Virus record (IMG/VR): IMGVR_UViG_3300042335_000264 | Coordinates: 1-46,689 of that record | DNA length: 46,689 nt | Strand: one strand, 5' to 3' | Source: a virus | Shown: in pieces, positions 6,657 through 46,120 of the stretch | Position numbering within the stretch: position 1 is the first letter of the stretch | Layout: the number at the start of each line of letters is the position of its first letter | Notes under the pieces: generated by a model | Told to the model about the DNA's origin: nothing | What the model saw: only the letters and a program-made list of their open reading frames with translations | Databases searched by the model: none | Position numbers and translations under genes: made by a program

Positions 6657-6800
6657 CAGAGATGTGAGGACCGAACCTCATGGCAATTAAGAATTCTCCT
6701 AATTCCCATCTCTGTAGTTTGAGAAGAGCACCCCCACCCTGAAAGTGGGGGGCGATCTCTTCTCGGTAGGTTATAAGAACAGCGTGAGCTGTAGTCTTAT
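6657..6800 (-). ncRNA. Three tandem RNA hairpins after the capsid stop codon
   Basis: On the minus strand three separate folds follow one another. The first (6773-6800) pairs ATAAGA/TCTTAT and ACAGC/GCTGT and begins in the stop codon. The second (6721-6764) pairs GAGAAGAG/CTCTTCTC and, inside, CCCCCAC/GTGGGGG. The third (6657-6714) has closing stem CAGAGATG/CATCTCTG with two arms inside (TGAGG/CCTCA and GG.AATTA/TAATT.CC), giving a three-way junction. None is followed by a T-tract, so they are not ordinary terminators. A role as mRNA 3' protection, processing site or separate small RNA is inference. Confidence 0.5.
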
Positions 6801-8353
6801 TAGAATTGTGGGATTTCTTCAATCAACACTGTACGAGACAGGTCCTCAATGAATACATCACAACGATCCTTCATCCAGATTTCGTATCCTGGGAATTTGT
6901 TCGCAGAGCTCATACCCTGAGACTTAGCAAAGCCTAAGTGGTGGCGAGTTCCATCGATATATCCCCAAGTCATAGAAGGAGCACCCTTCATACGCACCTC
7001 ACGGATGTTATTAACCATAGAGCCATCAGACATAGGACTTACGTCAAACACCATGAATACAGGAGTTGACTTCTTGTTCTGTCCAAACTCTAGGTTAGAT
7101 TGAGGAAGGTCAAGTTCCTTCAGGTGAATCAGTTCAACACGACCAGTCTCACGAGTTACCATTGCATCGAATGCAAAGTTGTAAGTGATGTGTTGTCCTT
7201 CTCCCTGCATGTAACGGTTTCCGCTATCAGCCATGAAGGTAAGACCGCTATTCAAAGCGTCTGTCTTCAAAGCTTGTTGGAACACGTCAAAACCTGCTTC
7301 GTTAGTGTACATTTTAACACGACGGTCTTTAACATCCACACGACGATAGAACAGGTCACCAAACACAGAACGAATCAGGTTGGCAGTAAATTCACCACGG
7401 TTGTATTGAACCAGGTTACCGTTGTTACGCATGCGGTGATAAACACCAGCAGATGTACGCTTAAGTTCTTGCTTAGATCCGTTGGTCTTTACAGTACCAG
7501 GACGAGACCAAATCATACGCTTAACTTTCAACTCAAGCATAGACTTACGCATCCAGAACTCAATAAATGGCTCCCACTTAACATCGTTACGAGTTAAGGG
7601 AAGTTGGTTACGACGCTGAGGTGCATATACAAGGATATCCAAAGGACGTCCTGCAGAGTCACGCATCATTTTGTCATCAGCCCACTCAGTGATTTTGTGC
7701 TCAAAACCATATGCAGAACCCAAAGATTCAAACATAGTGATTTGCTCACCCAAACGAGGAAGACCTAACAAATCTTGATCGAACTCACCAATTGCAGCAT
7801 CAACCAACTCAAGCTCGATACCTACTTGTAAGAAGGTAGAACTTACGAAGTCTACAGTTGGGTTGTCTGTAACAAGTGTGAAGCTATAAAGGAATCCCAT
7901 GTTCCAAGGAACGGGGTCCTTAATAACATAGAAGCGAGGACCATACTGACGAGAACCTACAGACACAATAGCGTTCTTAGAGAACTCATTAGTGTCGAGG
8001 ACCAGTTGGAACTCTTGACCATCGATACCAGGCTTGCTCAACTCAAGAGTTGAGTTAGGTACGTCGATGATTTTGGGGAATTTGTAGGGAACAGCTACTT
8101 GCCATTTCCAAGCATCGCTATTATTATCAATGTAATAAGGCGTGCTTTTGTTGATCATGTCGAGAAAGTCATTGCTGTACAGAGAGCTCTGTGTATAGAG
8201 GCTGATGATTTTCTTGTCGTAATCAGCAGGCTCAGTTGAGTGAAAGCTCTCCAGGTGGTTAGCGTCAGTTAGCTTACCTACAGCACGCTTGTCCATAGAA
8301 GCGACACGAGCATACGTGAAGCCAGTTAGACCTGGGATTGTTTGAATTGCCAT
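6800..8353 (-). CDS. Major capsid protein (probable)
   Basis: The protein has 517 residues and follows directly after a scaffold-like gene and before connector genes, the usual place of a capsid gene with an HK97-type fold. It begins MAIQTIPGLTGFTYARVASM. The sequence is an even mix of strand and helix without low-complexity parts or membrane segments, as expected for a shell protein, and it lacks enzyme motifs. The gene is followed by strong RNA hairpins, which would fit a highly expressed message. The fold itself cannot be proven from the sequence by eye. Confidence 0.8.
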   Translation of the reverse strand: MAIQTIPGLTGFTYARVASMDKRAVGKLTDANHLESFHSTEPADYDKKIISLYTQSSLYSNDFLDMINKSTPYYIDNNSDAWKWQVAVPYKFPKIIDVPNSTLELSKPGIDGQEFQLVLDTNEFSKNAIVSVGSRQYGPRFYVIKDPVPWNMGFLYSFTLVTDNPTVDFVSSTFLQVGIELELVDAAIGEFDQDLLGLPRLGEQITMFESLGSAYGFEHKITEWADDKMMRDSAGRPLDILVYAPQRRNQLPLTRNDVKWEPFIEFWMRKSMLELKVKRMIWSRPGTVKTNGSKQELKRTSAGVYHRMRNNGNLVQYNRGEFTANLIRSVFGDLFYRRVDVKDRRVKMYTNEAGFDVFQQALKTDALNSGLTFMADSGNRYMQGEGQHITYNFAFDAMVTRETGRVELIHLKELDLPQSNLEFGQNKKSTPVFMVFDVSPMSDGSMVNNIREVRMKGAPSMTWGYIDGTRHHLGFAKSQGMSSANKFPGYEIWMKDRCDVFIEDLSRTVLIEEIPQF

Positions 8354-10071: not shown

Positions 10072-10267
10072 ATATTTCTTTAAGTGCTTGATAAGTAATG
10101 AGTAATGACATCCTTTTTATCTTTTCCACCATCTCAGCCTCATCCTCAGACAGCAAGACAGTGTCCATGTCCTCAATCACACCCATAGCCTGTATGCAGG
10201 CTGTGATGTCTTCATGAGGGGTGGGGTCAAACTCTAGGGTGTCATCCAATATCTCGTTGATATCCAT
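10019..10267 (-). CDS. Small acidic hypothetical protein downstream of portal
   Basis: The protein has 82 residues and is acidic in the first two thirds (MDINEILDDTLEFDPTPHED), with a helical C-terminus. It shares one base with the end of the portal gene and overlaps the next gene by up to 53 bases, so it is part of the packed structural operon. No motif recognised. Confidence 0.65.
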   Translation of the reverse strand: MDINEILDDTLEFDPTPHEDITACIQAMGVIEDMDTVLLSEDEAEMVEKIKRMSLLITYQALKEIFEASQYGNKEPTQGRTS

Positions 10268-12861
10268 TATTCTTTCTTAGGTTTCTTTGCTCTTCCCTTT
10301 GCGTTTTCTTTAGCTATGGCCAGGTCATTTTTCTGATTCTCTCTAGCCACTTGTAGTTTTTCTCTTTCTATAGTTAACTTATCTGCAGCTAGTCTATTTT
10401 TAGTATTAATCTCAGCCATTTTAACATCAAACTCTTTTGTGGCTTTTGATTGTTCATTAGCTAACTTACTGATTTCCAATACGTCAGGAACACCACTTTC
10501 ATCTACGTCTGTAAGTCCCATACCCATAGATTTAGCCTCAGCATTTATCAAAGCAATCTCTTTCTTATTGATACGGTCTAGTTCATTCTGATAATTCTCG
10601 TTAGCTATCTCTTGCTCTTTTTGTAATTGAGCTTGTTGAATCTGGGCTTGTGCAATCTGACCCTGTTGTTCCACCTGCTGCTGTTGAATTTGCAGCTGTT
10701 GCTCTTGCATAGCCTGTTGTCTGTCACGGAGCTCCTTAAACACTTTCTTCATTTGTCTCATGGACTTAGTGCTATACAGCTCAATCACATCATACAGAGA
10801 TCCACCGTTCTGCATCAAAGGCTGGGCCAACTGACGAAGCTCATTGAACATCTGTGTATCTTCAGGACGATTTGTCAAGAATACCTTCAGGTCACGGAAC
10901 TTTAAGTCAGTTCCATTAACAGATACAAAAGCTGATTCACCCTCGCTAGTGATATAGCTAAGGGTGGACTGGGGCTTCTTGCTTTCTACATACAGGGCAG
11001 CATCAATAATGGCTTGATAGAGCTGACCCATTATATATTCATGAGCTACAAACCAAGGTTCTGTTTGAGCATAAGATTGTTGAATAGCTGTTTGTGTACC
11101 TGTTGCAGATTCACTTGCTGTTACAGATCCTAAACGTTGTCTACTCATACCTACAAGCTCCCAACATTCATTCTTTAGCTGTTGCGCTAAGGTGTAACGA
11201 GACTGGATCTCCTGAGTTCTGGTGAGGTCAATGTCCCTAAACTGATTGAATGAGCTGGGGCTCTTTAGGTTTTCAGGACTGTCATCAATAAACACAACAC
11301 CACGGTTGCGAGCTTCCATTTCCCAGATGTCTAATGCATCCTGAGCATCACCATCCTTAGGAACAGGAACGTGTCTGATGGATGTCAAATACACCTTACC
11401 CACTTCCTTCTCAAGAAGTTTGTAAAGCTGGTTCATACATACATTGTACAGCACCTGGAAGGGTTTCATCAAATCTACCAGAGATTTAGCCTCTGTATTC
11501 TTCACTTCGTAAGTAATACCAATAATAGGGCAATAATTAAGAAGCTTGAATGGTTTAACATGGTAGATGTCTGGACCAATCTTTGTACCCTGATACCATT
11601 GATTAATCCATCCCCACTCTAAACTCTGTTGTGTAGGAATGGTTCCAGACTTATAGTTCTCATCTACTAATATTGATTGCTCATTACCTATTTCATCTAA
11701 ATAGATTAATTTACCAATCTTCTTCTTACTCAGCCAATAACAACGAACAACAACATACTTATATCCAAAGGAGCTCACATTAGATGTAAGTCCTAAGAAG
11801 TCTTTTAAACCATCACTATTCTCCTTCATTTCTGATTCAATAATCATACGTGTCTGGAGGACAAGAGGGTCAAATGTATCATACATTACAGAGTCTATAC
11901 CAGGAATAGCGTTAGGATTACCTAGATTGGACTCACGTACATTAATTAATCCATAGTCTTGAAGAGATGAACGAAGGTGATCAATCTCTTCTTTGGTGAG
12001 GTCAGGGATGCTTTCAATGATTTCTGAAAGCTCCATAACTTGTACTGTACCAGCGGCATAAGCCCCCTGAGCTCTACCTGTAGGATCAGAGATATACTTT
12101 CTATCAGGAGTTGTAAGAAACCAAGTGTTCTTAGGGTTAGCCACCTCAACGTTAAATCCAAGTTTTGAGTTGTCTTCATATATATGATAGAATTCTCTTC
12201 CAGAAATTAGCATATCACGAAATGCATCTTCTGATTTCTCCTTCAGATTGAATTCAGCCTTTTGACATGTAAGAACGTGATTAGCCCACTTCTCAGCTAC
12301 AGATGTATAGCTGTCAAGAACATCTTTAACATCTTCAAAACTCATCTCTTCAACTTCCTCTTCAGAGAGCTCTTCTCCTTTTAGAGAAGCCTTCATCAAA
12401 ATCTGTTCTCTTGCTTTACCAATAATGTATTGTTGAAGAAGTTCTGTTTTAAATTGTAACTCTTCAGACTTACTATCATCATCAAATGCTTTCACCCTGA
12501 ATGTATCAGGACGCTTGCTTATTTCACCCACTAATTCGTTGACAGGTGTGGTGATGATGGAATACATCTTTACATATGCAGGAAGTTGTAAGTCAGCTGT
12601 AAGCACGTCTGTAAATGAACGCACTTGTGGCTCCTGATAGAAATCTTCCATCCTTAGGATACCTTTCATTAAGTCGTAGTTCTTTACAAACGTGTCACGG
12701 TTCTTTACAAACTCAGCATAAGCCTTGTTTGCAAAGTAGTCCATGGTGTTTTTGATCCAGCTCTCGTCTTGCTTCTCTTTATCAGTTTTGAACTGGTCAG
12801 GGAAGATATTAAGATAGGCATACCTAATGGTAGCATCTTTGGTATATCTAATAATAGCCAT
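10267..12861 (-). CDS. Portal protein
   Basis: The protein has 864 residues, directly downstream of the large terminase gene. Portals form the dodecameric DNA channel at one capsid vertex. The central part contains the region VGMSRQRLGSVTASESATGT followed by TQTAIQQSYAQTEPWF, typical of portal proteins of this group. The C-terminal 150 residues are a long Gln-rich coiled coil (QAMQEQQLQIQQQQVEQQGQ) ending in a Lys-rich tail, which probably forms the internal barrel. The length is at the upper end for portals and matches the oversized portals of crAss-like phages. Confidence 0.85.
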   Translation of the reverse strand: MAIIRYTKDATIRYAYLNIFPDQFKTDKEKQDESWIKNTMDYFANKAYAEFVKNRDTFVKNYDLMKGILRMEDFYQEPQVRSFTDVLTADLQLPAYVKMYSIITTPVNELVGEISKRPDTFRVKAFDDDSKSEELQFKTELLQQYIIGKAREQILMKASLKGEELSEEEVEEMSFEDVKDVLDSYTSVAEKWANHVLTCQKAEFNLKEKSEDAFRDMLISGREFYHIYEDNSKLGFNVEVANPKNTWFLTTPDRKYISDPTGRAQGAYAAGTVQVMELSEIIESIPDLTKEEIDHLRSSLQDYGLINVRESNLGNPNAIPGIDSVMYDTFDPLVLQTRMIIESEMKENSDGLKDFLGLTSNVSSFGYKYVVVRCYWLSKKKIGKLIYLDEIGNEQSILVDENYKSGTIPTQQSLEWGWINQWYQGTKIGPDIYHVKPFKLLNYCPIIGITYEVKNTEAKSLVDLMKPFQVLYNVCMNQLYKLLEKEVGKVYLTSIRHVPVPKDGDAQDALDIWEMEARNRGVVFIDDSPENLKSPSSFNQFRDIDLTRTQEIQSRYTLAQQLKNECWELVGMSRQRLGSVTASESATGTQTAIQQSYAQTEPWFVAHEYIMGQLYQAIIDAALYVESKKPQSTLSYITSEGESAFVSVNGTDLKFRDLKVFLTNRPEDTQMFNELRQLAQPLMQNGGSLYDVIELYSTKSMRQMKKVFKELRDRQQAMQEQQLQIQQQQVEQQGQIAQAQIQQAQLQKEQEIANENYQNELDRINKKEIALINAEAKSMGMGLTDVDESGVPDVLEISKLANEQSKATKEFDVKMAEINTKNRLAADKLTIEREKLQVARENQKNDLAIAKENAKGRAKKPKKE

Positions 12862-14885
12862 TATATAAACAATTTACTTTTTTTCCTTGGGAATAGTCCT
12901 CTTGATTCTGTGAATAGCTGGTTTTTCTTATTTGGTCTAAAGAACGCTTTCATTCTTTCATCTCCTGATCCCCCCACCTTTCCAAGTATGGGATCCATTT
13001 TAAGAGCTTGTGCAATAGCTAGTTCTGCAGCTACAATACGGTCAAAGTTACCCTGGTCATTATACTGAATTATCTCTTCTAGTAGAACAGGATCAAATAT
13101 CTTTGACACGCCTAACACCTCTTTAATAATGTCACCATCTTCGTTCTTCTCTTGATACACAATAGCCTCCATATACTTCTTGAGACAGTTGTGCAGATAG
13201 TCTCTTATCTTATCTGCTGAGCGGTGCACCCCATACTCACGTTTGACGGTGGTACCAGGCACCACTTCTTTCAACCATTCAGGTTGTTTCTCAAGGTAGT
13301 GTGCATCTCCTTTAGCTTTCATATATTCAATAAAGGAGATGTCATCATTTTCACAAAGTGTACGTGCATTGTAATACTTAATAAGAAGTCGAGCTTGTTC
13401 TTCCCAGGTTTCCTTCTTATCAGGTCGAGCACAATACGAAGCTACGAACATATCTTGGTATTTCTCACCAGTTATGTCGTGCATTCTTTTATAAACGTAC
13501 ACAGACCCTAATGATGTAGAATAAGCAGCTTGTCCTTGTCTATAAGGGTCAACCCCTGCTACATAGAGTCCGTATGGTGGGTTTTCTAAAGGAAACTCAT
13601 ATATCACTACAGGAGCATCCTTCAAATCACTGTTTTTAAGAGGGAAGTTGGTGATGGGTTGTTTATCTGTAAACTCATGACTAAGTTTCTCTCCATCATG
13701 AAACAGTATAACAGGTGTACCTGTGCGTTCTTGACCAATGAGTCTAGCTTTTTGACGTTTAGCTGCCTCAATATCAAATATGTTTGTGTCCTCATTTAGG
13801 AAGATGTCATCCACCTCAAGTGGGTAGTACATCTTCTCTTTTAGATAGGCCACCCTATCTCCAGCCTTCTTAAGGCGTTCTAGATTACCCTCTGTGATTT
13901 CTTTAGCCTTATCCTCATTACTCACCAGCATCCTTACATTATGTAGGTCGCTGTCTTTGGGCTGATCTAGAAATGCTCCAAGTGTACTTTCTTCCTTAGC
14001 CTCCATTCGATATTTATACGAAATAAACAGGCCATGAATACGTTTCTCATCCTTTTCATTGTTGTATGTAAGGAAGTTAAAGTTGTCTACATCAAACATC
14101 AGACTCTTGGCATCCATGAATCGCTTCATATCACCACCAGTACCTGTAAGAATTGGAGAGCACCCCCATCCATAAGGGGTGGTAAAACCTGGCACAGCTG
14201 CCTGAAAACCACGAAGAAAGTTACCCTTTCCAATCTCATCTATAATTAGTTTACGTGGTTTAGTACCAGCAATAGCTTCCTCGTTATTTCCCTCATCTAG
14301 GTTACGGATGAGTATCTGGGAGAACGGTATACGCTCTCCTGATTTGGTCTTAATACCTAGGGTGACTTGGTTTTTCCAGTTATCCTCAACCCTTTGCCAT
14401 CTCCATGCTTCAGGCAAAAAGTTAAGGCCCTTGTCCAGCTTATCTGTGATCAGCTTTATATCGGGGGCATTCAACCCAGCGATCACATTCTGGGAATTCT
14501 CATCAAATGTAGCGCCCCACCCTATGTAAGAAGCCTCTAGTACAGACTTAGCAAAACGTCGAATTCCTAGTATCACTAGTCCTTTCTTATCTTGCTGAGC
14601 CCTTTCTATTTCGTTTGTCACAATCCACTCATTATCACGAAGGAGTGGGTTGGCATATTTCTGTGATATTCTTCCGCGGTCATCAATAACATCCACCTCA
14701 GTGTGCCAGATGTTAAGGTGCCAATACAGAAAGGGGTTGATAAACACCCCATTCATCATAGCACCGTTCAAGCATATATCTCTATGGAAATCAAAGAAGG
14801 GTTTGTATTCAACTGAGTCACGGTCAGGAATACGCCCCTGGTTTAAATACCAGTCTTTGTAGTCTATGCTTTTAATTTCGTTCAT
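12861..14885 (-). CDS. terL: Terminase large subunit (packaging ATPase and nuclease)
   Basis: The protein has 674 residues. The ATPase half shows a deviant Walker A LGIRRFAKS (residues 106-114; Ala stands where Gly is usual before the Lys), Walker B KLIIDE (212-217) and a coupling region GCSPILTGTGG (241-251). The nuclease half begins with YVAGVDPYRQG (Asp446) and continues with CENDDIS (511-517) and an Asp in FDRIVAAE. The product drives DNA into proheads and cuts the concatemer. It shares one base with both neighbours, the probable small subunit upstream and the portal downstream. Confidence 0.92.
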   Translation of the reverse strand: MNEIKSIDYKDWYLNQGRIPDRDSVEYKPFFDFHRDICLNGAMMNGVFINPFLYWHLNIWHTEVDVIDDRGRISQKYANPLLRDNEWIVTNEIERAQQDKKGLVILGIRRFAKSVLEASYIGWGATFDENSQNVIAGLNAPDIKLITDKLDKGLNFLPEAWRWQRVEDNWKNQVTLGIKTKSGERIPFSQILIRNLDEGNNEEAIAGTKPRKLIIDEIGKGNFLRGFQAAVPGFTTPYGWGCSPILTGTGGDMKRFMDAKSLMFDVDNFNFLTYNNEKDEKRIHGLFISYKYRMEAKEESTLGAFLDQPKDSDLHNVRMLVSNEDKAKEITEGNLERLKKAGDRVAYLKEKMYYPLEVDDIFLNEDTNIFDIEAAKRQKARLIGQERTGTPVILFHDGEKLSHEFTDKQPITNFPLKNSDLKDAPVVIYEFPLENPPYGLYVAGVDPYRQGQAAYSTSLGSVYVYKRMHDITGEKYQDMFVASYCARPDKKETWEEQARLLIKYYNARTLCENDDISFIEYMKAKGDAHYLEKQPEWLKEVVPGTTVKREYGVHRSADKIRDYLHNCLKKYMEAIVYQEKNEDGDIIKEVLGVSKIFDPVLLEEIIQYNDQGNFDRIVAAELAIAQALKMDPILGKVGGSGDERMKAFFRPNKKNQLFTESRGLFPRKKSKLFI

Positions 14886-15929: not shown

Positions 15930-16212
15930 CAGGATTCATTTCATCTTCTTGGTCTGGTGTCATCAAAGCCACCCACTTTTCTAACGGGCAGGCACAAGAT
16001 AGACACTTGGTCTTGGCAGACAGGGTGCATCCACAATGTGTGCAATGATCGTCTGGTCTGACAGTTTTGTAATTCTTTCTGTTTTTGGAATGATATTCAC
16101 ATCCAGCACAGATGGCCAGTCTTTGCTCACTGGTCTCCTGTATTGTACTCCTCAACTTCTTGGGCGGAATTAGGTTGTTCCTCCAGCCCTCGTAAATTTG
16201 GGAAACTATCAT
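15919..16212 (-). CDS. Zinc-ribbon protein
   Basis: The protein has 97 residues with a double zinc ribbon: CAGC (near residue 35), then CTHCGCTL, then CLSCACPLEKW. The pattern 'CxxCGCxLxxK..CLSCxCPLxKW' is one I associate with small proteins near terminase genes in phages of Bacteroidota. The frame overlaps the IHF-like gene by 86 bases, which is long but supported by the intact Cys pattern. A DNA- or RNA-binding role is likely and the exact role unknown. Confidence 0.75.
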   Translation of the reverse strand: MIVSQIYEGWRNNLIPPKKLRSTIQETSEQRLAICAGCEYHSKNRKNYKTVRPDDHCTHCGCTLSAKTKCLSCACPLEKWVALMTPDQEDEMNPDGK

Positions 16213-16588
16213 ATATCTTTGGTTTTAAATCTCTCATCCCATCCAACGCTGTTTGCAGCTTCAATTTAGCCGCCTGCCTTTTGGCTTCTGGCAATGTTTC
16301 GTCAGCCACCCATTTTTCAAACAACGCTTTTTGGCTCAAGAACTTCTCCATCATCTTATGCGCCTTCTTCTCGTTAAAGAAGAACTTCCCAAACCCACTG
16401 ATTTCCAAGCTCTTGTGTTGACCTAGCGCCTCATGTGCACTCTGGAACTGGTGATTCACCACAGCCTCTAGCACCTTTTCACTAATCATCATTTTCACAG
16501 CCATTCTCCTAATTAGGTAGTCCTTAACAGAAAGGCTAATAGGCTTATCAGTGAACAAGTCTGATTTCAAGGGTGATGTCATTATCAA
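16127..16588 (-). CDS. IHF/HU-like DNA-binding protein
   Basis: The protein has 153 residues. The first ~90 look like the HU/IHF fold: an N-terminal helical part (VKDYLIRRMAVKMMISEKVL), a second helix and then the family hallmark HKSLEISGFGKFFF, matching the 'G..V.L.GFG.F' strand of IHF. The C-terminal 60 residues are an extra helical, charged extension. IHF-like proteins bend DNA. Genes of this type sit near terminase and portal genes in crAss-like phages, which supports a role in packaging or genome compaction. It overlaps the gene upstream by 41 bases. Confidence 0.7.
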   Translation of the reverse strand: MIMTSPLKSDLFTDKPISLSVKDYLIRRMAVKMMISEKVLEAVVNHQFQSAHEALGQHKSLEISGFGKFFFNEKKAHKMMEKFLSQKALFEKWVADETLPEAKRQAAKLKLQTALDGMRDLKPKIYDSFPNLRGLEEQPNSAQEVEEYNTGDQ

Positions 16589-16898
16589 AATTTAACACGA
16601 TTTGTGGATTCACCTTCACCTTTGTTCCATCCTTCACCAGCACCCCTATCTTCTTGAGCCTAGAAATGATGTTATTTATGGAGGCATTGGTGGTGCCATA
16701 TTTCTCACAGAAATCCTTGCGTATGTTGGCGTAAGATATGTTACCCCTTACAGCAGCAAAGGCTAGGAGCTGTAGTTCCCTTTGTGTCAGCTTTAAATCG
16801 TTTACAGCAGACAGGATGGTATAATACCTCTCCGCTAAGAGGGCATTATCCTTCTCTATTTTCCTAAGCTTCTGTAAAACGATGTTAGTGGTTTTCAT
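16548..16898 (-). CDS. Winged-helix-like protein, first gene of the structural module
   Basis: The protein has 116 residues. A helical N-terminus is followed by a winged-helix-like segment: LTQRELQLLAFAAVRG, then TNASINNIISRLKKIGVLVK as probable recognition helix and wing. It is the first gene behind the strong promoter at 16913-16944, so it is well placed to act as a regulator of the late genes or to bind the phage DNA. A transcription-factor role is inferred from the fold and place. Confidence 0.6.
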   Translation of the reverse strand: MKTTNIVLQKLRKIEKDNALLAERYYTILSAVNDLKLTQRELQLLAFAAVRGNISYANIRKDFCEKYGTTNASINNIISRLKKIGVLVKDGTKVKVNPQIVLNFDNDITLEIRLVH

Positions 16899-16912
16899 AG
16901 ATTTAGTTAGTA

Positions 16913-16944
16913 CAAAGATAGGAACTATTTATAACATATTCAAA
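16913..16944 (-). promoter_or_regulatory. Promoter of the structural (left) module
   Basis: On the minus strand TTTG (16941-16944) is followed by exactly 20 bases and a perfect TATCTTTG (16913-16920). This is a full match to the Bacteroidota consensus TTTG/TAnnTTTG. The first start codon lies 14 bases after the -7 box, so the leader is very short. Confidence 0.75.
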
Positions 16945-17104
16945 TACAATCTTTTACCCTATTGCTATATTATGTCTTATTTCCCTTATCTCTGTCCACC
17001 AGAAGGGGATGAAAAAGCTTATATATAAAGGAAGGAGATATAAGAATAACCCACCCAACCACCCCAAAGTTACAACATCCTCTATATAGATTCCAAATTT
17101 ATTT

Positions 17105-17137
17105 TTTGCACAAGGTAGCGTGAAACACTACTTTATG
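17105..17137 (+). promoter_or_regulatory. Weak candidate promoter for the right (early) module
   Basis: TTTG (17105-17108) is followed by 20 bases and TACTTTATG (17129-17137). The -7 box lacks one base compared with TAnnTTTR. It is the best forward match in the divergent region. A transcript from here would carry the parS-like site and the G/C-tracts in its leader. Confidence 0.3.
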
Positions 17138-17185
17138 CAAAATTCTACTATACCCCTATGTCCATATAAACACTCCCCCCTACCA

Positions 17186-17201
17186 GGTTTCACGTGGAAC
17201 A
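17186..17201. promoter_or_regulatory. parS-like centromere site
   Basis: GGTTTCACGTGGAACA matches the bacterial ParB-binding palindrome family TGTTYCACGTGRAACA at 15 of 16 positions, differing only in the outermost base. Its 14-base core is intact. Such sites are normally bound by chromosomal ParB. No parA or parB gene is seen in this window. The site sits in the divergent region between the two gene modules. Confidence 0.6.
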
Positions 17202-17346
17202 AGCCCCCCTGGTAAACTAACCTATTGAAAATCAATTGTGTGCATGGGAGGGGAGGGTACTTCCAACCAATACCCCTCTTATAATTTGCAAAGTTGGGGG
17301 TGCCCCCGCACCTTCGACAATTATTAATCACTTAAACTTTTGTAAA

Positions 17347-17775
17347 ATGCCAGTAGCATTTAAAAAGTATCAGCGTGACACTACCGAGGTTAAGGAACTC
17401 GGTACTGTCAAAACCCTTGCAGGCAAGGGCGGTCGTGTAAAGTTCTTAAGAAAGAACTTTAAAGACAAGAGCAAGCAAGTTGCTCTCATTGTTGAGCGGA
17501 AAGACGGTGCTTCCGCTGTAATTCCCTGTTCAGTACAAGTTAGTCAACTTGTCCGTGAAGCAGAGATTACGATGCCTCAACTCATTGGACTACAAGTCAT
17601 TGAGTTTGACCATCGCGATAAAGTTGACCCTAAAACAGGTAAACCTGTTCGGGTTGCTGTTATCGCTGCACCACAGGGTGGTGGCATTCAGGAATTCAAC
17701 ACTGACGAGTTGCAAGCAGAAGCTTTGGAACTGTCAGCAGAATTCCTGCCAGAAGGTTTGGTTACACTTGCGTGA
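17347..17775 (+). CDS. First early protein, function unknown
   Basis: The start is ATG 17347, giving 142 residues (MPVAFKKYQRDTTEVKELG). An upstream extension of the frame runs through the G-rich leader and is not credible. The N-terminal half is basic (GKGGRVKFLRKNFKDKSKQV) and beta-like, and the C-terminus is acidic. Codon choice (CGT, GGC, GGT, CTC) is more 'optimised' than in the small genes that follow, suggesting strong expression. Alone before a perfect terminator, it is a monocistronic unit. No family recognised. A nucleic-acid-binding protein would fit. Confidence 0.75.
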   Translation: MPVAFKKYQRDTTEVKELGTVKTLAGKGGRVKFLRKNFKDKSKQVALIVERKDGASAVIPCSVQVSQLVREAEITMPQLIGLQVIEFDHRDKVDPKTGKPVRVAVIAAPQGGGIQEFNTDELQAEALELSAEFLPEGLVTLA

Positions 17776-24243: not shown

Positions 24244-24504
24244 ATGGCAACTAAAAAACAAACAGTAAAAGAAACAGCTAGATTAACTATCACGTGTGAT
24301 TCAAATCAAGAATCCACAGTGAAAATAAAAGGAGATATACACACCCTTACAGCAGCACTTGCTTCTCTAATGGCACACGAAGATGAATACAACGTGTTTC
24401 GTGAGATGATGGCGTTAGCTATTCAGGTTGTTCTAGAAGAAAGTAAACAAAAGAAGAAGAAATCTGCAACTAAAAAGAAAGCAGCTGTTAAAAAGAAGAA
24501 ATAA
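24244..24504 (+). CDS. Protein with Lys-rich histone-like C-terminal tail
   Basis: The protein has 86 residues. A compact N-terminal part (TARLTITCDSNQESTVKIKG then a long helix) is followed by a tail of Lys, Ala, Ser and Thr (KKKKSATKKKAAVKKKK) like bacterial histone H1-like proteins. It should bind DNA or RNA without sequence preference. The stop overlaps the start of the DNA polymerase gene, so the two are coupled. A link with polymerase function is inferred from that. Confidence 0.75.
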   Translation: MATKKQTVKETARLTITCDSNQESTVKIKGDIHTLTAALASLMAHEDEYNVFREMMALAIQVVLEESKQKKKKSATKKKAAVKKKK

Positions 24505-26456
24505 TGAATGTAATCATTTATGACATCGAGACCTTAAAAGAATACTTTCTTGTGGTAGCAATGGTGCCTGGATATAAAAGAATATTCAAGGTGAATGCCT
24601 ATGAAAACAATCTAGACTCATTTATTAGATTCACAGAAGACCACAAAGATGACTATTGGGTGGGTTATAACAACCTACGTTTCGATAGTCAAGTGGTGGA
24701 GTGGGTGATACGCAACTACGAGAACTGGCATGAGCTTTCCAACCTGGAAATAGCTGCCAAGATTCATCAAAAGGCTGCAGATGTTATACATGACGCTAAT
24801 TATGACGTGTTTCCTGAATTTAGGGAGTATGAGCTCAGCCTTAAACAGATTGATTTATTCAAGGTGCACCACTTTGATAACAAGAACAGACGCGTGAGCC
24901 TAAAGAGGCTTGAGTTTGAGATGGACCTAGAGAACATTGAGGAGATGCCCATTCATCATGACACTGTAGGAATGACTAAAGATGATATCATCCTTACGAC
25001 AGAATACTGCATCAACGATGTGTGGGCCACCTATCAGTTCTACAAGGTGACCATCGGTGACACAGACCATCCTTTGTATAAGGGTGACAATAGAATACAG
25101 CTCAGACAGGACATACAAGAAGAGTTTGGGATTCCATGTCTAAACTATTCTGACAGTAAGATTGGAGATGAGATGATTAAAAAGTATTACTGTGAACAGA
25201 AGGGTATAGACTACAAGGACCTGCCCAAGACTGGTAAGTTTGAGAAGAAAACCTATGTCAAAAACTGTATTGCAGACTATGTAAAGTTCCAGACGCCTGA
25301 ACTACAAGAGTTCCTGACACGCATCAGGAAGATGAGTTTGGGTATGAAGGATGACTTCAAAGAGGAACTACACTTCTATGGTAATGTGTATTCCTTTATG
25401 AAAGGTGGTTTGCATACAGAGAATGGTCCCAAGATCTTTGAGGCTGATGATGAGTATGAGATTATAGACTGGGATGTATCCAGCTATTATCCAGCCATTA
25501 TCATCAACAATGGTCGTTATCCAAGGCATTTGGGTAAAGAATTCCTTCAGGGCTATAAGACAATGTTTGAGAAGAGGTTGGAACTCAAGCCTTTAGCTAA
25601 GAAGGACAAGAAAATCAAGGGTATTGTAGGAGCACTAAAGCTTGCTGTAAACTCTGTTTACGGTAAGAGCTCTGACATACAGAACTGGATTTATGATAGG
25701 CAGCTCACTATGTTCACCACCATTACAGGTGAACTTAGCCTAATGATGCTCATAGAAGCTTATGAACTGGCTGGTATTAACGTAATAAGTGCAAACACTG
25801 ATGGTGTCACTATTAGGATTAAAAAGGATCTAATAGACAAAATGCACGAGATTAACAGCTGGTGGAGTGAGCTTACACAATATGAGCTAGAAAGGGCTGA
25901 TTATCAAAGAATAATATTTTCCACGGTAAATGACTATCTTGCGATAAAAACAGATGGAGAAATCAAGAAGAAAGGTGATTTCCTCACGGATTTCGAGCTT
26001 CATAAGAACAAGTCAGCTAGGATTGTACCAATGGCTCTCGAACAATATTTTGTTCATAATATACCTGTTGCTACTACTATTCGCAGTCATAGTGTTATCT
26101 TTGACTTCTGTCTCAGACAGAAAGCATCCAAAGACTTCCACTACGAAGGAATAGATAGGTCCACGGGTGTTAAAACTGTGTACAATAAGCTGATTCGTTA
26201 TTATATCTCCAACACTGGAGAGAAGCTCCTGAAAATCAAGAATGAGGATAGTGACAGTGGTGCTGCAGCTGTTTCCCAAGTGGAAGCTGGTGAGTGGCTA
26301 GCCACTGTATGCAATAAACTTGATAAGAACCATCCTCTAGACAACATCAATTATGCCTATTACATCGAGCGTGCTGAGAAGCTTATTAGGAAGATTGAGA
26401 CAGAGGGTAAAGCAAAGAAGATAGTTGTAAATCCTAACCAACTAACACTTTGGTAA
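24504..26456 (+). CDS. Family B DNA polymerase with 3'-5' exonuclease
   Basis: The protein has 650 residues. Exonuclease motifs: YDIET (Asp7, Glu9), YNNLRFDS (Asp61) and YCIND (Tyr168-Asp172). Polymerase motifs: A, DWDVSSYYP (322-330); B, KLAVNSVYG (379-387); C, SANTDGVT (429-436), in which Asn431 replaces the first Asp of the usual DTD while the essential second Asp433 is kept. The short length puts it among compact phage polymerases. No terminal-protein gene is seen, so protein priming is not indicated. It is the replicative polymerase of the phage and shares one or a few bases with each neighbour. Confidence 0.9.
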   Translation: MNVIIYDIETLKEYFLVVAMVPGYKRIFKVNAYENNLDSFIRFTEDHKDDYWVGYNNLRFDSQVVEWVIRNYENWHELSNLEIAAKIHQKAADVIHDANYDVFPEFREYELSLKQIDLFKVHHFDNKNRRVSLKRLEFEMDLENIEEMPIHHDTVGMTKDDIILTTEYCINDVWATYQFYKVTIGDTDHPLYKGDNRIQLRQDIQEEFGIPCLNYSDSKIGDEMIKKYYCEQKGIDYKDLPKTGKFEKKTYVKNCIADYVKFQTPELQEFLTRIRKMSLGMKDDFKEELHFYGNVYSFMKGGLHTENGPKIFEADDEYEIIDWDVSSYYPAIIINNGRYPRHLGKEFLQGYKTMFEKRLELKPLAKKDKKIKGIVGALKLAVNSVYGKSSDIQNWIYDRQLTMFTTITGELSLMMLIEAYELAGINVISANTDGVTIRIKKDLIDKMHEINSWWSELTQYELERADYQRIIFSTVNDYLAIKTDGEIKKKGDFLTDFELHKNKSARIVPMALEQYFVHNIPVATTIRSHSVIFDFCLRQKASKDFHYEGIDRSTGVKTVYNKLIRYYISNTGEKLLKIKNEDSDSGAAAVSQVEAGEWLATVCNKLDKNHPLDNINYAYYIERAEKLIRKIETEGKAKKIVVNPNQLTLW

Positions 26457-28720: not shown

Positions 28721-28968
28721 ACCCACAACCACCAATTAACTTAAACATCCCACTAGAACAAACTATTCCAGTGGTATGTGAAAGCTGTCAAAGTGATGTA
28801 TTCATAAATGCATTGATGCTTCGTAAGGCATCTCGTTTTGTAACAGGAACATCTCAGGACACAATTATTCAGATTCCAGTGTTTATGTGCAGAAAGTGTG
28901 GACACTTGAACCAAGAGTTTATTTCGCCACAATTGAAAAACACTGAAAACAAAGAAGCAAGCTTATGA
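28717..28968 (+). CDS. Zinc-ribbon protein upstream of replicative helicase
   Basis: The protein has 83 residues, with CESC at residues ~21-24 and CRKCGHLN at ~57, forming one zinc ribbon with long strands between. It overlaps both neighbours by 4 bases. Coupling with the helicase gene suggests a role at the replication fork. No named family. Confidence 0.7.
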   Translation: MNPQPPINLNIPLEQTIPVVCESCQSDVFINALMLRKASRFVTGTSQDTIIQIPVFMCRKCGHLNQEFISPQLKNTENKEASL

Positions 28969-30026
28969 GCTTTGATCAACTAAAACAGGAGGTGCAGCTA
29001 GGCCTTGATGGCAGAAATGGAGGCATTCCTATGGGCTTTGATAGGCTCAATAGGTACATTGGCATCCGTAAGAGCATGTACTTTCTTGTGGGTGGTTTGA
29101 CAGGCTCTGGTAAGACATCCTTCATAGATGATGCATTCGTGCTCAATCCATTTGACTGGTATATCAGTCAGAAAGACCCAGGAATCAAGCTACGCATCAT
29201 ATATCGTTCAATGGAGCGTTCTAGAACCTATAAACTAGCCAAATGGGTTGGTAGAAAGATATTTCTAGACCATGGTGTAATTATTCCCGTTCCTAAGCTC
29301 TTGGGCTGGACAGAGAAGATGAGCCATGATGAGCACGATCTGTTCCTGATGTATGAAGACTATATGAATAGGATGGATGATGTCATCACTATTATTGATG
29401 GACCAGAGAATCCTGTAGGTATAGCCAAGGAACTAAAAGCGCATGCTGTTAAACATGGACGTATTGAGCAGATTGATGAGTATAACAAGCGCTATTTCCC
29501 TAATGATGAAAGTGAAATAACTATTGTTGTTATTGATCACATAGGCCTACTAAAGACCACCAAGGACCATTCCACTAAAAAGCAAGCTATAGATAAAATG
29601 TCAGATGAGCTTAGATTTGCTCGTGACTTTTATGGATATACGCCTGTTGTTGTTAGTCAGTTCAACCGTGACATTAGTAATCCTATAAGAATAAAGAATG
29701 GTGATGTAGAGCCTCAGCTCGAGGATTTTGCAGAATCATCCAGTACACAAAATGATTCAGACGTTGTACTAGCTCTATTTGATCCTATGCGCTACAAGGT
29801 GGCTGACCCTAGTGGTTACAACCTAGAGAAGCTAAAGGATGAATTTGGTGCTAAGTATTTCAGAAATCTTCGCCTCATAAAGAATAGTTATGGTGAAGAT
29901 GATGTAAGAATAGGCCTAGGCTTTATGGGCCAGATAGGCATGTTCAAAGAGCTGCCCAGACGTAAGGATATGACAGACGCTGATTATGAGGCAGTGGTGA
30001 ACAAGTCCTTTTTTCTAAACAAATAA
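28965..30026 (+). CDS. DnaB-like replicative helicase
   Basis: The protein has 353 residues, only the RecA-like motor, without the N-terminal DnaB domain. Walker A is GGLTGSGKTS (43-52), Walker B ITIVVIDHIGLL (Asp191), and the later VVVSQFNRDI with DFAESSSTQNDSDVVLAL is the typical end region of SF4 helicases (arginine-finger loop and 'S..iqnDaD'). It unwinds the fork 5'-3' as a ring. Partners are the TOPRIM primase, encoded separately, and the possible loader upstream. Confidence 0.85.
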   Translation: MSFDQLKQEVQLGLDGRNGGIPMGFDRLNRYIGIRKSMYFLVGGLTGSGKTSFIDDAFVLNPFDWYISQKDPGIKLRIIYRSMERSRTYKLAKWVGRKIFLDHGVIIPVPKLLGWTEKMSHDEHDLFLMYEDYMNRMDDVITIIDGPENPVGIAKELKAHAVKHGRIEQIDEYNKRYFPNDESEITIVVIDHIGLLKTTKDHSTKKQAIDKMSDELRFARDFYGYTPVVVSQFNRDISNPIRIKNGDVEPQLEDFAESSSTQNDSDVVLALFDPMRYKVADPSGYNLEKLKDEFGAKYFRNLRLIKNSYGEDDVRIGLGFMGQIGMFKELPRRKDMTDADYEAVVNKSFFLNK

Positions 30027-36377: not shown

Positions 36378-36772
36378 TGAAACCTTTAAAAGTTGGAGAA
36401 AACCTCACCCTAAATGTGGGTGACTTTATTGTGATTGCCTCAGGCGGTCGATTAGATTATGGCTGGTATTGTGGACAGGGTAGATATGGGTCTACATTAC
36501 ATTATTACAGCATATGGAGTCCTGGAAGTGCTTTGGAAGACTATGAGCAGTATGAAAAAGGAGAACCAATACGATCATGGGTAGCTGAGAGGTTTAAAAA
36601 GCAGAAAGGATTCAACTCCAAATGCTTTTACAAAAACTTTCTTAATGTCTATTATGAAAGCAGAATCCTGAAGCCAGGTAATCCAGATGAGCTATTTACA
36701 CATCCAGAGCAACTAGCAAAATACAACAAATCAAAAGAAGCACTAATCAGAATTAAATTCCTACAACCATGA
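36377..36772 (+). CDS. Hypothetical protein
   Basis: The protein has 131 residues. The first half looks like a small beta-barrel (NLTLNVGDFIVIASGGRLDY), followed by YGWYCGQGRYG and a helical, basic end. It overlaps the rIIA-like gene by 4 bases, so the three genes are co-expressed. No function recognised. Confidence 0.65.
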   Translation: MKPLKVGENLTLNVGDFIVIASGGRLDYGWYCGQGRYGSTLHYYSIWSPGSALEDYEQYEKGEPIRSWVAERFKKQKGFNSKCFYKNFLNVYYESRILKPGNPDELFTHPEQLAKYNKSKEALIRIKFLQP

Positions 36773-39096
36773 TTTTAGAAAAACAGAAAGAATCAATGGT
36801 TCACCAAGAGGGTGAATCACAAGAATCCATTGGGATGTCCCTTGACCTAGACTCAGCACAGATTTTAATGCAGATGTTGAGTAAGAACTTGTATTCAGAT
36901 GATATTGGTTCTACTATCAGGGAGTGTGCATCTAATGCACTAGATTCTCACCGCAGGGCTGGTGTTGATAAGCCTATTGTGGTGTCTCTCACAATCAACA
37001 AAGAGGATAACTATGAGTTCTCTGTAGAGGACTTCGGTACAGGACTAGATGCTGATGACGTAAAGAATATTATCAGCAAGTATGGTAAGTCTACTAAGCG
37101 TAACAGCGCTACAGAATTAGGTATGATGGGGCTAGGTTTCAAAGCCCCGCTAGCGTACAGCTCAAGCTTCTATTTTGTCTGTCGTAAGGATGGAATGGAA
37201 CGTAAGTATATGATGTACGAGGGTGAAGATGTTAATACCATCGATCTTCTTTATGAAGCACCCACAGATCAGCCTAATGGTGTCAAGGTGATTGTGCCTC
37301 TTAAACCCTATGACAAGCACACCTTTATTCGTAAGATTAAAGAGCAGCTTGCCTATTTTGAGAGCGTTTATTTTGACGTACCAGAGATTAATAATGACTT
37401 TGTAATCACACGCCATGAATTCTTCCAATTTTCGGAGCTTGCTAGTAATAATTATCTGCACATCTGTCTGGATAATGTCTATTATCCTATTGACTTTGAA
37501 AAGCTGGGAATTGATACACTTCGTCTTCCAGTGGCTCTTAGATTTAGTTTGACAGATGGTATATTTCCTACACCAAACAGGGAATCCATCCGATATACAC
37601 AAGAGGCCAAGGCTGTGATTCTCAAGCGTTTACAACAAGCTTCTAACTATTTCATTGAGAAATACAATGAGACGGTGAAGGAAACTGCAGATCTGAAGAC
37701 TATCATTGACTATTTTGATAGCGATTATCGTTATCTGAAGGTGGGTAACTCTAGCTGGGATGTACATCCTCTGTCTAAGTTTGCTACAATAGACATTGCA
37801 GCTCCTAAACTCAAGGGTATCAATCTACTTGATATGCAACAGTTGGTGAGACTGCAGGAGTATATGCTTGGTGAGTATGATGCTAAGTTTTATGTGAATG
37901 GTAAAACCATGAGGGAAGCTAAACGCTATTATGGAGCAACATCCATCAAAAAGCTCAGCCGCACAGTCTATGTGTATGAAGGAGATAAGATTTCTGGACT
38001 CAAGAAAGACTATCTAAAGAGCATACAGCCTGACAAGTACACAGACAGCCTGATTGTAAGAAAATCTAGGAGTTTCCCCTTACGCAGCAAGAATGGTAGA
38101 GGTGATTATGACAATTATTACACTATGCTCAAGCTGGGTAAGCATCCAAAGAGTGAGTGGAGACAAAGAATCCAGGAGTTTCAATCCATCATAAATGGCT
38201 ATACCAGCCAGTTTGTGAACATTGATACACTGGAAGTACCACAAAGCTTTATTGATGCTAGAAAGAAACAGCGCATCAGCACTGGTCAAATCAAGGGTAC
38301 AGGTGTTGCTAGTGGTCCTCGTAGAGTGAAGCTAAAGGGCGAGATGATATGTAAGCAGGCTGTAGATCTAGAGCGCTGGGTGGACGGTAAGAACTGTAAG
38401 TGGGTTAGTAAGACCTATGATATGGCTAAGTTCCACCAGAATCCGTTTCTCCTCATCTATGGTAAGCAGGAGGATATGGATAAGATGGATAAGTGGTTCA
38501 GGCCTACAAGAAGTCTTAAGATTGAACTAGCAGTTCTTAGTGAGCGTGAACTCAAGCTCGTAGAGAAGATAGAATTACATAACCTAATGTCATTTAGTAA
38601 ATTTATGGAAGGAAAGAATAAAAAGTTCCAACGGATAGCAACAGCATGCTTTATTGATAAGCTTACGGATGATTACAAATATGTATTCCGTAATGTAGAA
38701 GCACTTCAACCTATTTCTACAGATCTGCATGACAAGGTGGTAAGTCTTACTAATTATAGAAATGTTAATTTCAGAAGCCTGGATGATGACATAAGAGACA
38801 CCATTATAGAACATGCAAAAGAGAATAAAGCATTTGACCTATCTATGTATTCCACTGCTGTAGAAATAGAGAACATCTGCAAGAAGCTTCCGTTCCTAGA
38901 TGCAATGATGAGCAATATTCGCTATTATGGAGATCTTGATAGTGAAAAGCCACTACTCACAGCCCTTAAGGATCTATTCAAGTATCACAAGCATAGAATA
39001 GATTGGAAGAACTACAGAATACGCTTCAATGAAGACCTCCCTTTAGAGGAGACGCTAACATCGGAAACTGTTGAACAATTGGTACAACAAGATTAA
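36769..39096 (+). CDS. rIIA: rIIA-like protein with GHKL ATPase domain
   Basis: The protein has 775 residues, close to T4 rIIA (725). The N-terminal GHKL ATPase fold is clear: N-box STIRECASNALDSH (48-61), G1 box VEDFGTGLD (86-94) and G2 box GMMGLGFKAPLAYSS (118-132). The remaining ~500 residues are unlike GyrB or Hsp90, as in other rIIA proteins. In T4, rIIA and rIIB act at the membrane and overcome exclusion by a lambda prophage, so a defence-related role is plausible here. The rIIB-like gene follows directly. Confidence 0.82.
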   Translation: MILEKQKESMVHQEGESQESIGMSLDLDSAQILMQMLSKNLYSDDIGSTIRECASNALDSHRRAGVDKPIVVSLTINKEDNYEFSVEDFGTGLDADDVKNIISKYGKSTKRNSATELGMMGLGFKAPLAYSSSFYFVCRKDGMERKYMMYEGEDVNTIDLLYEAPTDQPNGVKVIVPLKPYDKHTFIRKIKEQLAYFESVYFDVPEINNDFVITRHEFFQFSELASNNYLHICLDNVYYPIDFEKLGIDTLRLPVALRFSLTDGIFPTPNRESIRYTQEAKAVILKRLQQASNYFIEKYNETVKETADLKTIIDYFDSDYRYLKVGNSSWDVHPLSKFATIDIAAPKLKGINLLDMQQLVRLQEYMLGEYDAKFYVNGKTMREAKRYYGATSIKKLSRTVYVYEGDKISGLKKDYLKSIQPDKYTDSLIVRKSRSFPLRSKNGRGDYDNYYTMLKLGKHPKSEWRQRIQEFQSIINGYTSQFVNIDTLEVPQSFIDARKKQRISTGQIKGTGVASGPRRVKLKGEMICKQAVDLERWVDGKNCKWVSKTYDMAKFHQNPFLLIYGKQEDMDKMDKWFRPTRSLKIELAVLSERELKLVEKIELHNLMSFSKFMEGKNKKFQRIATACFIDKLTDDYKYVFRNVEALQPISTDLHDKVVSLTNYRNVNFRSLDDDIRDTIIEHAKENKAFDLSMYSTAVEIENICKKLPFLDAMMSNIRYYGDLDSEKPLLTALKDLFKYHKHRIDWKNYRIRFNEDLPLEETLTSETVEQLVQQD

Positions 39097-43992: not shown

Positions 43993-44016
43993 AATTTTTC
44001 AAATGTCTTGGAATTT

Positions 44017-44054
44017 AAAGGGTGGTGATTTAACTTCGCCACCCTTTATTTTTC
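44017..44054 (+). terminator. Intrinsic terminator in front of ribonucleotide reductase gene
   Basis: AAAGGGTGGTG (44017-44027) pairs with CGCCACCCTTT (44037-44047, one G-U) around a 9-base loop, followed by ATTTTT. It lies inside the extended reading frame from 44003 and so argues that the reductase starts at 44078 instead. Confidence 0.75.
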
Positions 44055-44077
44055 ACCCCTTAAAATTACAAAATGTT

Positions 44078-46120
44078 ATGGATTTAGGATTGGACGCACT
44101 AAGTAAGTTGACAGTTTTTAGTAAGTATGCAAAGTATGTACCCGAATTAAAGCGCAGAGAGACCTGGGAAGAGATTGTAGCCAGGTATGAGAGCATGATG
44201 GTCAAGAAGTATCCCAAGCTGGAAGGCCAGATTAAGGAGACTTCTCAGTTCATTTTAAACAAGAAAGTGCTTCCTTCCATGAGAGCCCTGCAGTTTGCAG
44301 GACCAGCTGCTGAGGTGAATAACTCAAGGATTTACAACTGTTGCTATCTGCCTATAGATAGTATACATAGTTTTAGTGAGACTATGTTCTTGCTGCTGGG
44401 CGGTACAGGAGTGGGCTATAGTGTTCAAAAACAACACGTTGCACAGCTTCCTGTTATTACAAAGCCTGGTAAAGCTCGTAACTACCTGATTGAGGATAGC
44501 ATCATGGGATGGGCAGACGCTGTAAAGGTGCTTATGAAAGCCTATCTGGAGGGTGGTTTTATGCCTAAGTTTGACTTTAGAACCATTCGTAAAAAGGGTG
44601 CTAGATTGATTACAGCTGGTGGTAAAGCGCCTGGACCAGAACCTTTAAAGATATGTCTGGCTCATGTGGAGGCTGTATTAAGCAGAATAGAGCCTGGTAA
44701 TCAGCTCAAACCCATTGATTGTCATGATATTCTGTGTCACATTGCAAACAGTGTACTGGCTGGTGGTATCCGTAGATCTGCCATGATTGCCCTGTTTAGC
44801 CATGATGATGAGGAAATGATTACATGTAAGTCATCTAACGTTTCTTCAAAAATATTGTCAAAAGAGCATCCCAAGTACACTTCAAAGAATGGACTAGAAG
44901 AAGATATTACTAAATACAATTTGGTAATTGAACAGAGTGGAATTGTTTATAAAGATGTAACAATACACATTGATTTAAATAGTAATAAGTTCTGGGATTT
45001 AGAGCAATATGAACATAATGGGACGTTAGGCTGGTGGGTGTGTAACGAACAACGTGGAAGAGCTAATAACTCTGCTGTGCTCCTAAGAGGAGAAGTTGTA
45101 GCTCAGGAGTTCTTTGACCTTTGGAAGCGCATTGAAGCTTCTGGATCTGGGGAGCCTGGTATCTACTGGACCAATAATCTAGACTGGGGAACTAACCCAT
45201 GTTGTGAGATTGCCCTTAGACCCTATCAGTTCTGTAACCTGTGTGAGGTGAATGTAAGTGATATCGTTAGTCAAGAAGACCTGAATGACCGTGTTACAGC
45301 AGCTGCCTTCTTTGGTAGTCTGCAGGCTGGATTCACAGATTTCCACTATCTACGTCCTATATGGTCTAAAACCACCCAGAAGGATGCCCTCCTTGGGATA
45401 GGTATGACTGGGATTGGATCAGGGGAAATCCTTAAATACAACTTAGCTGCTGCAGCCCGTGTAGCCAAGATGACTAACGCTATTATCAGCGAGCAGATTG
45501 GCACTAATGAGGCAGCCCGCGTAACATGTATCAAACCCTCTGGTACAACTAGTCTTGTTCTAGGAACAGCTAGCGGTATCCATGCTTGGCATAATGATTA
45601 CTACTTACGCACTATGCGTTTTGGTAAAAACGAGGACATAGCTAGCTATCTAATGGTAAATCATCCAGAACTAGTTGAGGATGATGTACTTAGACCACAT
45701 GATACTGTATGTGTACGCATTCCTGTTAAGGCACCTGAAGGATCTATATTCAGAACAGAAAGTCCTCTTGACACATTAGAACGTGTTAAGAAGTTTTCTA
45801 TCGAATGGATCAAGGAAGGTCATCTAATAGGAGACAATACACATAACGTATCAGCCACTATTTCTCTTAAGCCAGAAGAATGGCCTGTTGCAGGAGAGTG
45901 GATGTGGGACAATAGACAATTTTACAACGGACTAAGTGTTCTCCCTTATTTTGGACACACTTACAAGCAAGCTCCTTTTGAAGACATCACAGAAGAAGAA
46001 TATAACACAAGGCTGAACGCATTGCATGCATTAGACCTCACTAAAGTGACAGAACTAGATGACACTGTGGAGTTTGGTCAAGTGGCTGCATGTGCAGGTG
46101 GTGCTTGTGAAATATCATAA
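44078..46120 (+). CDS. nrdJ: Class II (B12-dependent) ribonucleoside-triphosphate reductase
   Basis: ATG 44078 gives 680 residues (MDLGLDALSKLTVFSKYAKY); a start at 44003 would run through a terminator. Key cysteines match the monomeric Lactobacillus-type enzyme: IYNCCYLP (Cys88/89), NPCCEIAL (thiyl Cys375, Glu377), QFCNLCEVN (Cys386) and the C-terminal pair CAGGAC (672, 677). KPSGTTSLVLGT is the family's phosphate loop. It makes dNTPs from NTPs with adenosylcobalamin and works with or without oxygen. Residues ~253-318 form an insertion not usual in the family. Confidence 0.88.
   Translation: MDLGLDALSKLTVFSKYAKYVPELKRRETWEEIVARYESMMVKKYPKLEGQIKETSQFILNKKVLPSMRALQFAGPAAEVNNSRIYNCCYLPIDSIHSFSETMFLLLGGTGVGYSVQKQHVAQLPVITKPGKARNYLIEDSIMGWADAVKVLMKAYLEGGFMPKFDFRTIRKKGARLITAGGKAPGPEPLKICLAHVEAVLSRIEPGNQLKPIDCHDILCHIANSVLAGGIRRSAMIALFSHDDEEMITCKSSNVSSKILSKEHPKYTSKNGLEEDITKYNLVIEQSGIVYKDVTIHIDLNSNKFWDLEQYEHNGTLGWWVCNEQRGRANNSAVLLRGEVVAQEFFDLWKRIEASGSGEPGIYWTNNLDWGTNPCCEIALRPYQFCNLCEVNVSDIVSQEDLNDRVTAAAFFGSLQAGFTDFHYLRPIWSKTTQKDALLGIGMTGIGSGEILKYNLAAAARVAKMTNAIISEQIGTNEAARVTCIKPSGTTSLVLGTASGIHAWHNDYYLRTMRFGKNEDIASYLMVNHPELVEDDVLRPHDTVCVRIPVKAPEGSIFRTESPLDTLERVKKFSIEWIKEGHLIGDNTHNVSATISLKPEEWPVAGEWMWDNRQFYNGLSVLPYFGHTYKQAPFEDITEEEYNTRLNALHALDLTKVTELDDTVEFGQVAACAGGACEIS

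Follow-up and report, generated by a model that had tools for sequence, protein, structure and literature searches.

A putative host-type parS site in the divergent intergenic region of a crAss-like phage in which no par genes were found

The DNA analysed here (46,689 nucleotides in all, referred to below as the window) comes from a crAss-like phage (Crassvirales) and makes up part of a genome of roughly 114 kb. It is assigned to this order because it carries terminase, portal, head protein, DNA polymerase, ribonucleotide reductase and rIIA-like genes and because its terminase matches mainly crAss-like phages (Cellulophaga, Bacteroides and gut). Leftward, i.e. on the minus strand, run the genes for the major head protein (6800..8353), the portal protein (10267..12861), the crAss-like terminase large subunit (12861..14885), which was the query used for finding relatives, an HU/IHF-like DNA-binding protein (16127..16582; PF00216, E=1.5e-7, over the cut-off) and, first in the leftward direction, a 116-residue protein of the winged-helix type (16548..16898). 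The last of these bears a weak similarity to the DNA-binding portion of phage replication protein O (PF04492, E=3e-4, 21.7 of 28.7 bits and below the cut-off); it was detected by tblastn in 73 of 80 loci and served as the anchor for locating the region of interest in relatives. On the plus strand, a first rightward gene of 142 residues (17347..17775), poorly conserved and belonging to no family, is followed at greater distance by genes for a phage DNA polymerase (24504..26456), a DnaB-like helicase (28965..30026), a rIIA-like protein (36769..39096) and a ribonucleotide reductase (44003..46120). A full-length relative encodes a lytic-type gene set (UvsX, its own primase, helicase, polymerase, ribonucleotide reductase, rIIA/rIIB and endolysin). 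The full-length relative G002 encodes both the CrAss_Ring_1 and CrAss_Ring_2 tail-ring proteins, and no integrase is among the Pfam and PHROG families listed for it. Separately, G002 (L248-L251) carries an assortment of sugar and sulfur genes, i.e. for a heptose kinase/adenylyltransferase, a phosphoheptose isomerase, a sulfotransferase, an APS kinase, an epimerase and a GH19 chitinase.

The starts of the first leftward gene (16898) and of the first rightward gene (17347) bound a noncoding region of about 450 bp (16899..17346, not assigned to a strand). The proposal, made from the sequence alone, that a parS-like site lies in the single divergent intergenic region of this phage agrees both with this annotation and with two full-length relatives, in which there is one main divergence, with otherwise just small local flips, and in which the parS-like site is located there. 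The minimum of the cumulative GC skew also falls at the site in these two relatives. This would fit a replication origin, for which the divergent region is a likely candidate, although such a curve could also arise purely from the direction of transcription.

The region also contains promoter-like sequences, with one match (TTTG-N20-TATCTTTG, 16913..16944, minus strand) just upstream of the leftward gene and a second (TTTG-N21-TAACTTTG, 17065..17097, minus strand) separated by about 90 bp from the core of the parS-like site; some of the relatives also have a match at this second position. These are the two matches to TTTG-N18..22-TANNTTTG in the whole window, and the looser pattern TTG-N18..23-TANNTTTG is present in the divergent region of 67 of the 69 relatives with enough sequence, compared with 2.5% of random windows. 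We take the pattern of TTG, spacer and TANNTTTG to be the Bacteroidota promoter type. Two further features of the region were observed. Operator-like palindromes of the form GTNAR-N7..9-TTNAC are about six times denser in the divergent regions of relatives than overall (0.97 versus 0.16 per kb), often with two in tandem (e.g. in L018, L041 and L003). At 17230-17270, on the side of the site towards the rightward gene, a block (TGTGCATGGGAGGGGAGGGTACTTCCAAC) appears conserved across the close relatives that were aligned, whether or not these carry the parS-like site.

The occurrence of the Bacteroidota promoter type in 67/69 relatives, together with the crAss affiliation and the tail-ring proteins, points to a host that is almost certainly in the Bacteroidota. 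No relatives of the terminase were found in the collection of sequenced genomes used for host look-up. A cyanobacterial host, considered since the nearest named terminase is that of a phage isolated on the cyanobacterium Leptolyngbya (41% identity), was rejected on account of the promoters. The phage concerned, Lbo-JY46 (PP438436.1; L100-L102), is itself of interest, given that the family of the window looks like one of Bacteroidota phages; its host assignment, or a possible host jump, merits attention.

The parS-like site itself, found by motif search, is a 16-mer, GGTTTCACGTGGAACA, at 17186-17201 (no strand assigned). As the sequence-only reading had it, the 16-mer departs from TGTTTCACGTGGAACA only in its outermost, first base; the CACGTG centre is intact, and positions 17187-17200 hold a perfect 14-base core, GTTTCACGTGGAAC, which corresponds to the palindrome GTTYCACGTGRAAC and is its single perfect copy in the window. 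No other site in the window lies within three mismatches of TGTTTCACGTGGAACA, with 0.42 matches at three mismatches being expected per shuffled window. The earlier estimate that such a core should occur by chance far less than once in 47 kb also holds, about 7e-4 perfect copies of GTTYCACGTGRAAC being expected by simple arithmetic. The half-site GTTYCAC is not in excess in the window (11 seen, 11 expected), and Rfam and tRNA scans gave no matches. Runs of six C residues stand to the left (17175..17180) and right (17204..17209) of the site, and G/C runs on both sides are found in most close relatives. The nested inverted repeats reported to flank the site are partly substantiated: the repeat is present (TACCAGG at 17181-17187, CCTGGTA at 17208-17214), but the DNA folds no better than when shuffled (z = 0.03), such that we reject the repeats as a structure, and most relatives have not kept these flanks.

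Conservation was assessed among IMG/VR relatives with terminases 83-100% identical to that of the window (80 kept out of 505 matches; records up to about 115 kb), one of which, L002, is nearly the same phage. In 63 relatives the divergent region is intact, and here the region upstream of the winged-helix anchor was searched. The prediction that the motif would recur at the same place in relatives was borne out in part: the palindrome is perfect in 17 of the 63 and has a single mismatch in 10 more (27 in all), while five have decayed versions (GTTCCATATGGAAC, GTTCCACAAGGAAC and TTTCCACGTGGAAA) and 31 have no recognisable site. By comparison, perfect sites occur in 8 of 1123 other 900-bp windows of the same loci (0.7%), partly as coding coincidences. 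Fifteen of 20 family records hold one and only one copy of the 12-base core (0/20 for the reversed pattern used as a control), including four (L007, L033, L066 and L056) in which it lies inside an ORF and which were left out of the count. Presence of the site follows the terminase tree, requiring 8 changes as compared with 20.5 when labels are shuffled, and both main branches carry it. In aligned regions the palindrome is kept while the surrounding DNA undergoes insertions, deletions and substitutions, and across relatives its distance to the leftward gene ranges from about 250 to 1,113 bp. Among 24 different sequences, the bases of the 14-mer that vary are chiefly those at the T/C, A/G and first or outermost positions. 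This set was picked for similarity, so that its information content is inflated; a clade of the terminase tree with the site in 20 of 27 rows gives a fairer measure. Since 31 of the 63 relatives are without the site and five have it decayed, it is not essential; overall, selection seems to have kept it as an accessory that the phage can do without.

These comparisons bear on two of the alternatives to a genuine parS. That the resemblance is pure chance, with no function, fits with the lack of the site in about half of the relatives, and coincidental coding matches do occur in this phage family; however, about 7e-4 perfect matches are expected per window, the palindrome is retained amid diverged flanks, and its recurrence at one place in 27/63 relatives, set against fewer than 1% of control windows with a perfect site, contradicts chance, making this reading hardly credible. 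Very improbable, too, is the possibility that the sequence is the phage's own operator or a hairpin, with its likeness to parS being fortuitous. The region does have further palindromic operator-like repeats and adjoins the winged-helix gene, but that gene is also present in relatives without the site, the variation, like that of the host motif, falls chiefly on the Y/R and outermost bases, and there is no notable fold.

Several matches elsewhere in the family were rejected. In L007, L033, L066 and others, what seemed to be a relocated site some 4.7 kb past the start of the terminase is a coding coincidence inside a 176-residue ORF reading PGFHVKLP, as are apparent sites at +7.7 kb, within the major head protein gene; the L056 match, within a 406-residue ORF, was not counted. 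The PGFHVKLP ORF, which follows the portal gene (about 4737 bases past the terminase start in L033, with equivalents in L007, L009, L034, L040, L064, L066 and L075), resembles an SPFH/band-7 motif and could mislead motif surveys. In L068, L071 and L077, GTTCCATATGGAAC and GTTCCACAAGGAAC stand where the close relatives L073 and L080 have GTTCCACGTGGAAC, which might reflect decay or else a ParB of altered specificity in a different host. Further afield, the DNA examined from Leptolyngbya phage Lbo-JY46, Cellulophaga phi17:2 and phi4:1, and csAssE-Sib, all of them less closely related, has no such site, which counts against the host-parS reading.

The same palindrome is found on the chromosomes of the proposed host phylum. 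Of 198 Bacteroidota genomes, 184 contain GTTYCACGTGRAAC, typically in two copies that, among the cases listed, are mostly close together, whereas the reversed control is present in about 10. In each of 20 of these genomes that were tested, one chromosomal ParB scored over the curated cut-off; one such ParB, when compared with solved structures, matched ParB and Spo0J (E about 1e-52). Because of its occurrence in 184/198 genomes and of the ParB in 20/20, GTTYCACGTGRAAC is the chromosomal parS of Bacteroidota. The ParB gene is not adjacent to parS in genomes of the host phylum, which counts against a reading that involves host ParB. The phage 16-mer, with its perfect 14-base core and intact CACGTG, is a palindrome of the TGTTNCACGTGNAACA type that defines chromosomal-type parS. 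Comparison with the parS of the predicted host, as had been suggested, thus shows the same palindrome, with the host being predicted to the level of phylum, via the promoters.

The view that the phage lacks par genes is likewise upheld. Neither ParB (ParB_N, PF02195) nor ParA (PF13614) gave a match over the cut-off in 20 family records, most of 80-115 kb; as a positive control, the ParB_N search was positive in 11 of 14 genomes and the ParA-type search in 14 of 14. A ParB encoded by relatives of the phage was considered and rejected, there being two weak PF02195 matches only, to proteins with a ParB/Srx fold and a DGQH motif that are unlike centromere-binding ParB. These proteins, of about 255 residues, are encoded at L083:1387-2154 and L084:1387-2148, in the relatives L060 and L031, both of which are without the site.

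The motif is not confined to this family. A search of the entire viral collection for exact copies of the 14-mer gave at least 120 loci, versus 52 for the reversed sequence, and, among the matches listed, 30 of 136 occurrences of the 14-mer compared with 2 of 52 for the control lie mostly outside predicted genes. This suggests, for the sample of the database covered, that the motif is enriched in the noncoding DNA of other viral contigs too; some of the contigs bearing it may be integrated or contaminated with host DNA. A ParB search over the listed motif-bearing viral loci gave one weak match. On one 77-kb viral contig two exact parS 14-mers stand in tandem in noncoding DNA (L280:6864-6893).

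Recurrence in relatives, identity with the Bacteroidota motif and the absence of ParAB together make it well supported, at the level of sequence comparison, that a host-type parS lies in the divergent region of a phage that appears to have no par genes; the core proposal of the sequence-only reading, a parS-like centromere site in such a phage, has therefore held up with respect to recurrence in place, chromosomal motif identity and lack of ParAB. Host ParB is very probably recruited by the site. We further consider it modestly probable that an acquired chromosomal-type parS serves to load host ParB at the phage origin for positioning or partition of unintegrated phage DNA. In this scheme a true chromosomal-type parS would have been acquired, and then kept, by the phage; during infection of a Bacteroidota cell, the ParB of the host, which is a CTP-dependent clamp, would load on the single phage site and slide over the adjoining DNA, i.e. 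the likely origin and the region of early and late promoters. Less certainly, the ParB-coated phage DNA might then be moved or tethered on the nucleoid by host ParA, and unintegrated phage genomes might thereby be kept, spaced or shared out at cell division. In support, one high-affinity parS is enough for chromosome segregation in Pseudomonas aeruginosa (PMC4368675), and unstable plasmids are stabilised by chromosomal parAB plus one parS (PMC7022226). Positioning or partition would suit a prolonged carrier state, or one resembling that of a plasmid, as has been proposed for crAss-like phages (PMC12118408), and is the simplest use for a site on a non-integrating phage. Against this reading stand the lytic-type gene set and the lack of any recognised plasmid replication or partition gene among the families listed for a full-length relative, and whether partition or positioning is the main role of ParB recruitment appears to us evenly balanced.

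The main rival to positioning or partition is promoter regulation, in which ParB, once loaded, would spread across the promoters of the divergent region and so silence early and late genes or set the time of their transcription, with a host factor acting as an expression switch. The location of the site in a divergent promoter region, where two leftward promoters of the Bacteroidota type lie 90 to 270 bp away, is consistent with this, as is the ability of parS-bound ParB to silence nearby genes in P. aeruginosa (PMC7022226). The promoters are, however, present in relatives both with and without the site, and the variable spacing between site and leftward gene implies no fixed promoter geometry; we regard regulation as an unlikely, though not a negligible, main role. 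Less probable again is a decoy or takeover function, whereby many phage copies would titrate ParB, or pull SMC onto phage DNA, either disturbing the host chromosome or helping phage DNA compaction. The site matches the host consensus in full, phage copies made during replication would exceed in number the two sites that a host usually has, and parS sites recruit the SMC condensin (PMC10197239); yet one site per genome is poorly suited for titration, for which arrays would be expected, and the site is kept at an origin-like region rather than being scattered.

The persistence of crAss-like phages in their hosts, despite the lack of an integrase, still calls for an explanation, and a host centromere on the phage origin would offer a concrete, single-site mechanism. 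The host-ParB reading, if true, would make this a naturally occurring phage that relies on host ParB while having no par gene of its own. In its broadest form, which we put forward tentatively and with some doubt, the proposal is one of centromere piracy, i.e. that a widespread metagenomic crAss-like lineage bears the parS of the host chromosome at its own origin and exploits host ParAB, with SMC perhaps involved too, to retain and share out its unintegrated genomes; if true, this would help to explain how phages with lytic gene sets persist without lysogeny. Phage ParABS systems and chromosomal parS are both already known. Our literature search, the scope of which excluded subscription papers and preprints, found no report of a host-type parS without parAB in a crAss-like lineage, nor a natural case of a phage relying on host ParB without any par gene.

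The closest precedent by lineage is a crAss-like phage with a phage-plasmid lifestyle (Schmidtke et al., as cited in PMC12118408); so far as that citation describes it, it is like the present phage in belonging to the same order, having Bacteroidota hosts and not integrating, and differs in belonging to another family. The ParABS systems of plasmid prophages (P1, N15 and the extrachromosomal mycobacteriophages) likewise place a centromere-like site on an unintegrated phage genome, but these phages encode their own ParA and ParB, whereas here neither was found and the site is of the chromosomal type. Chromosomal parS placed on unstable laboratory plasmids, in P. aeruginosa and others, resembles the present case in that a single chromosomal-type site is located on an extrachromosomal replicon; there parAB was supplied by design, while here the site is natural and in a phage. 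With respect to the chromosomal parS of Bacteroidota and of most bacteria, the hosts usually have two copies, whereas the phage appears, from its sequence, to have one copy and no parAB in the element; the palindrome, its CACGTG centre and the T/C and A/G positions of variation are common to both, and the phage site, too, may lie near an origin.
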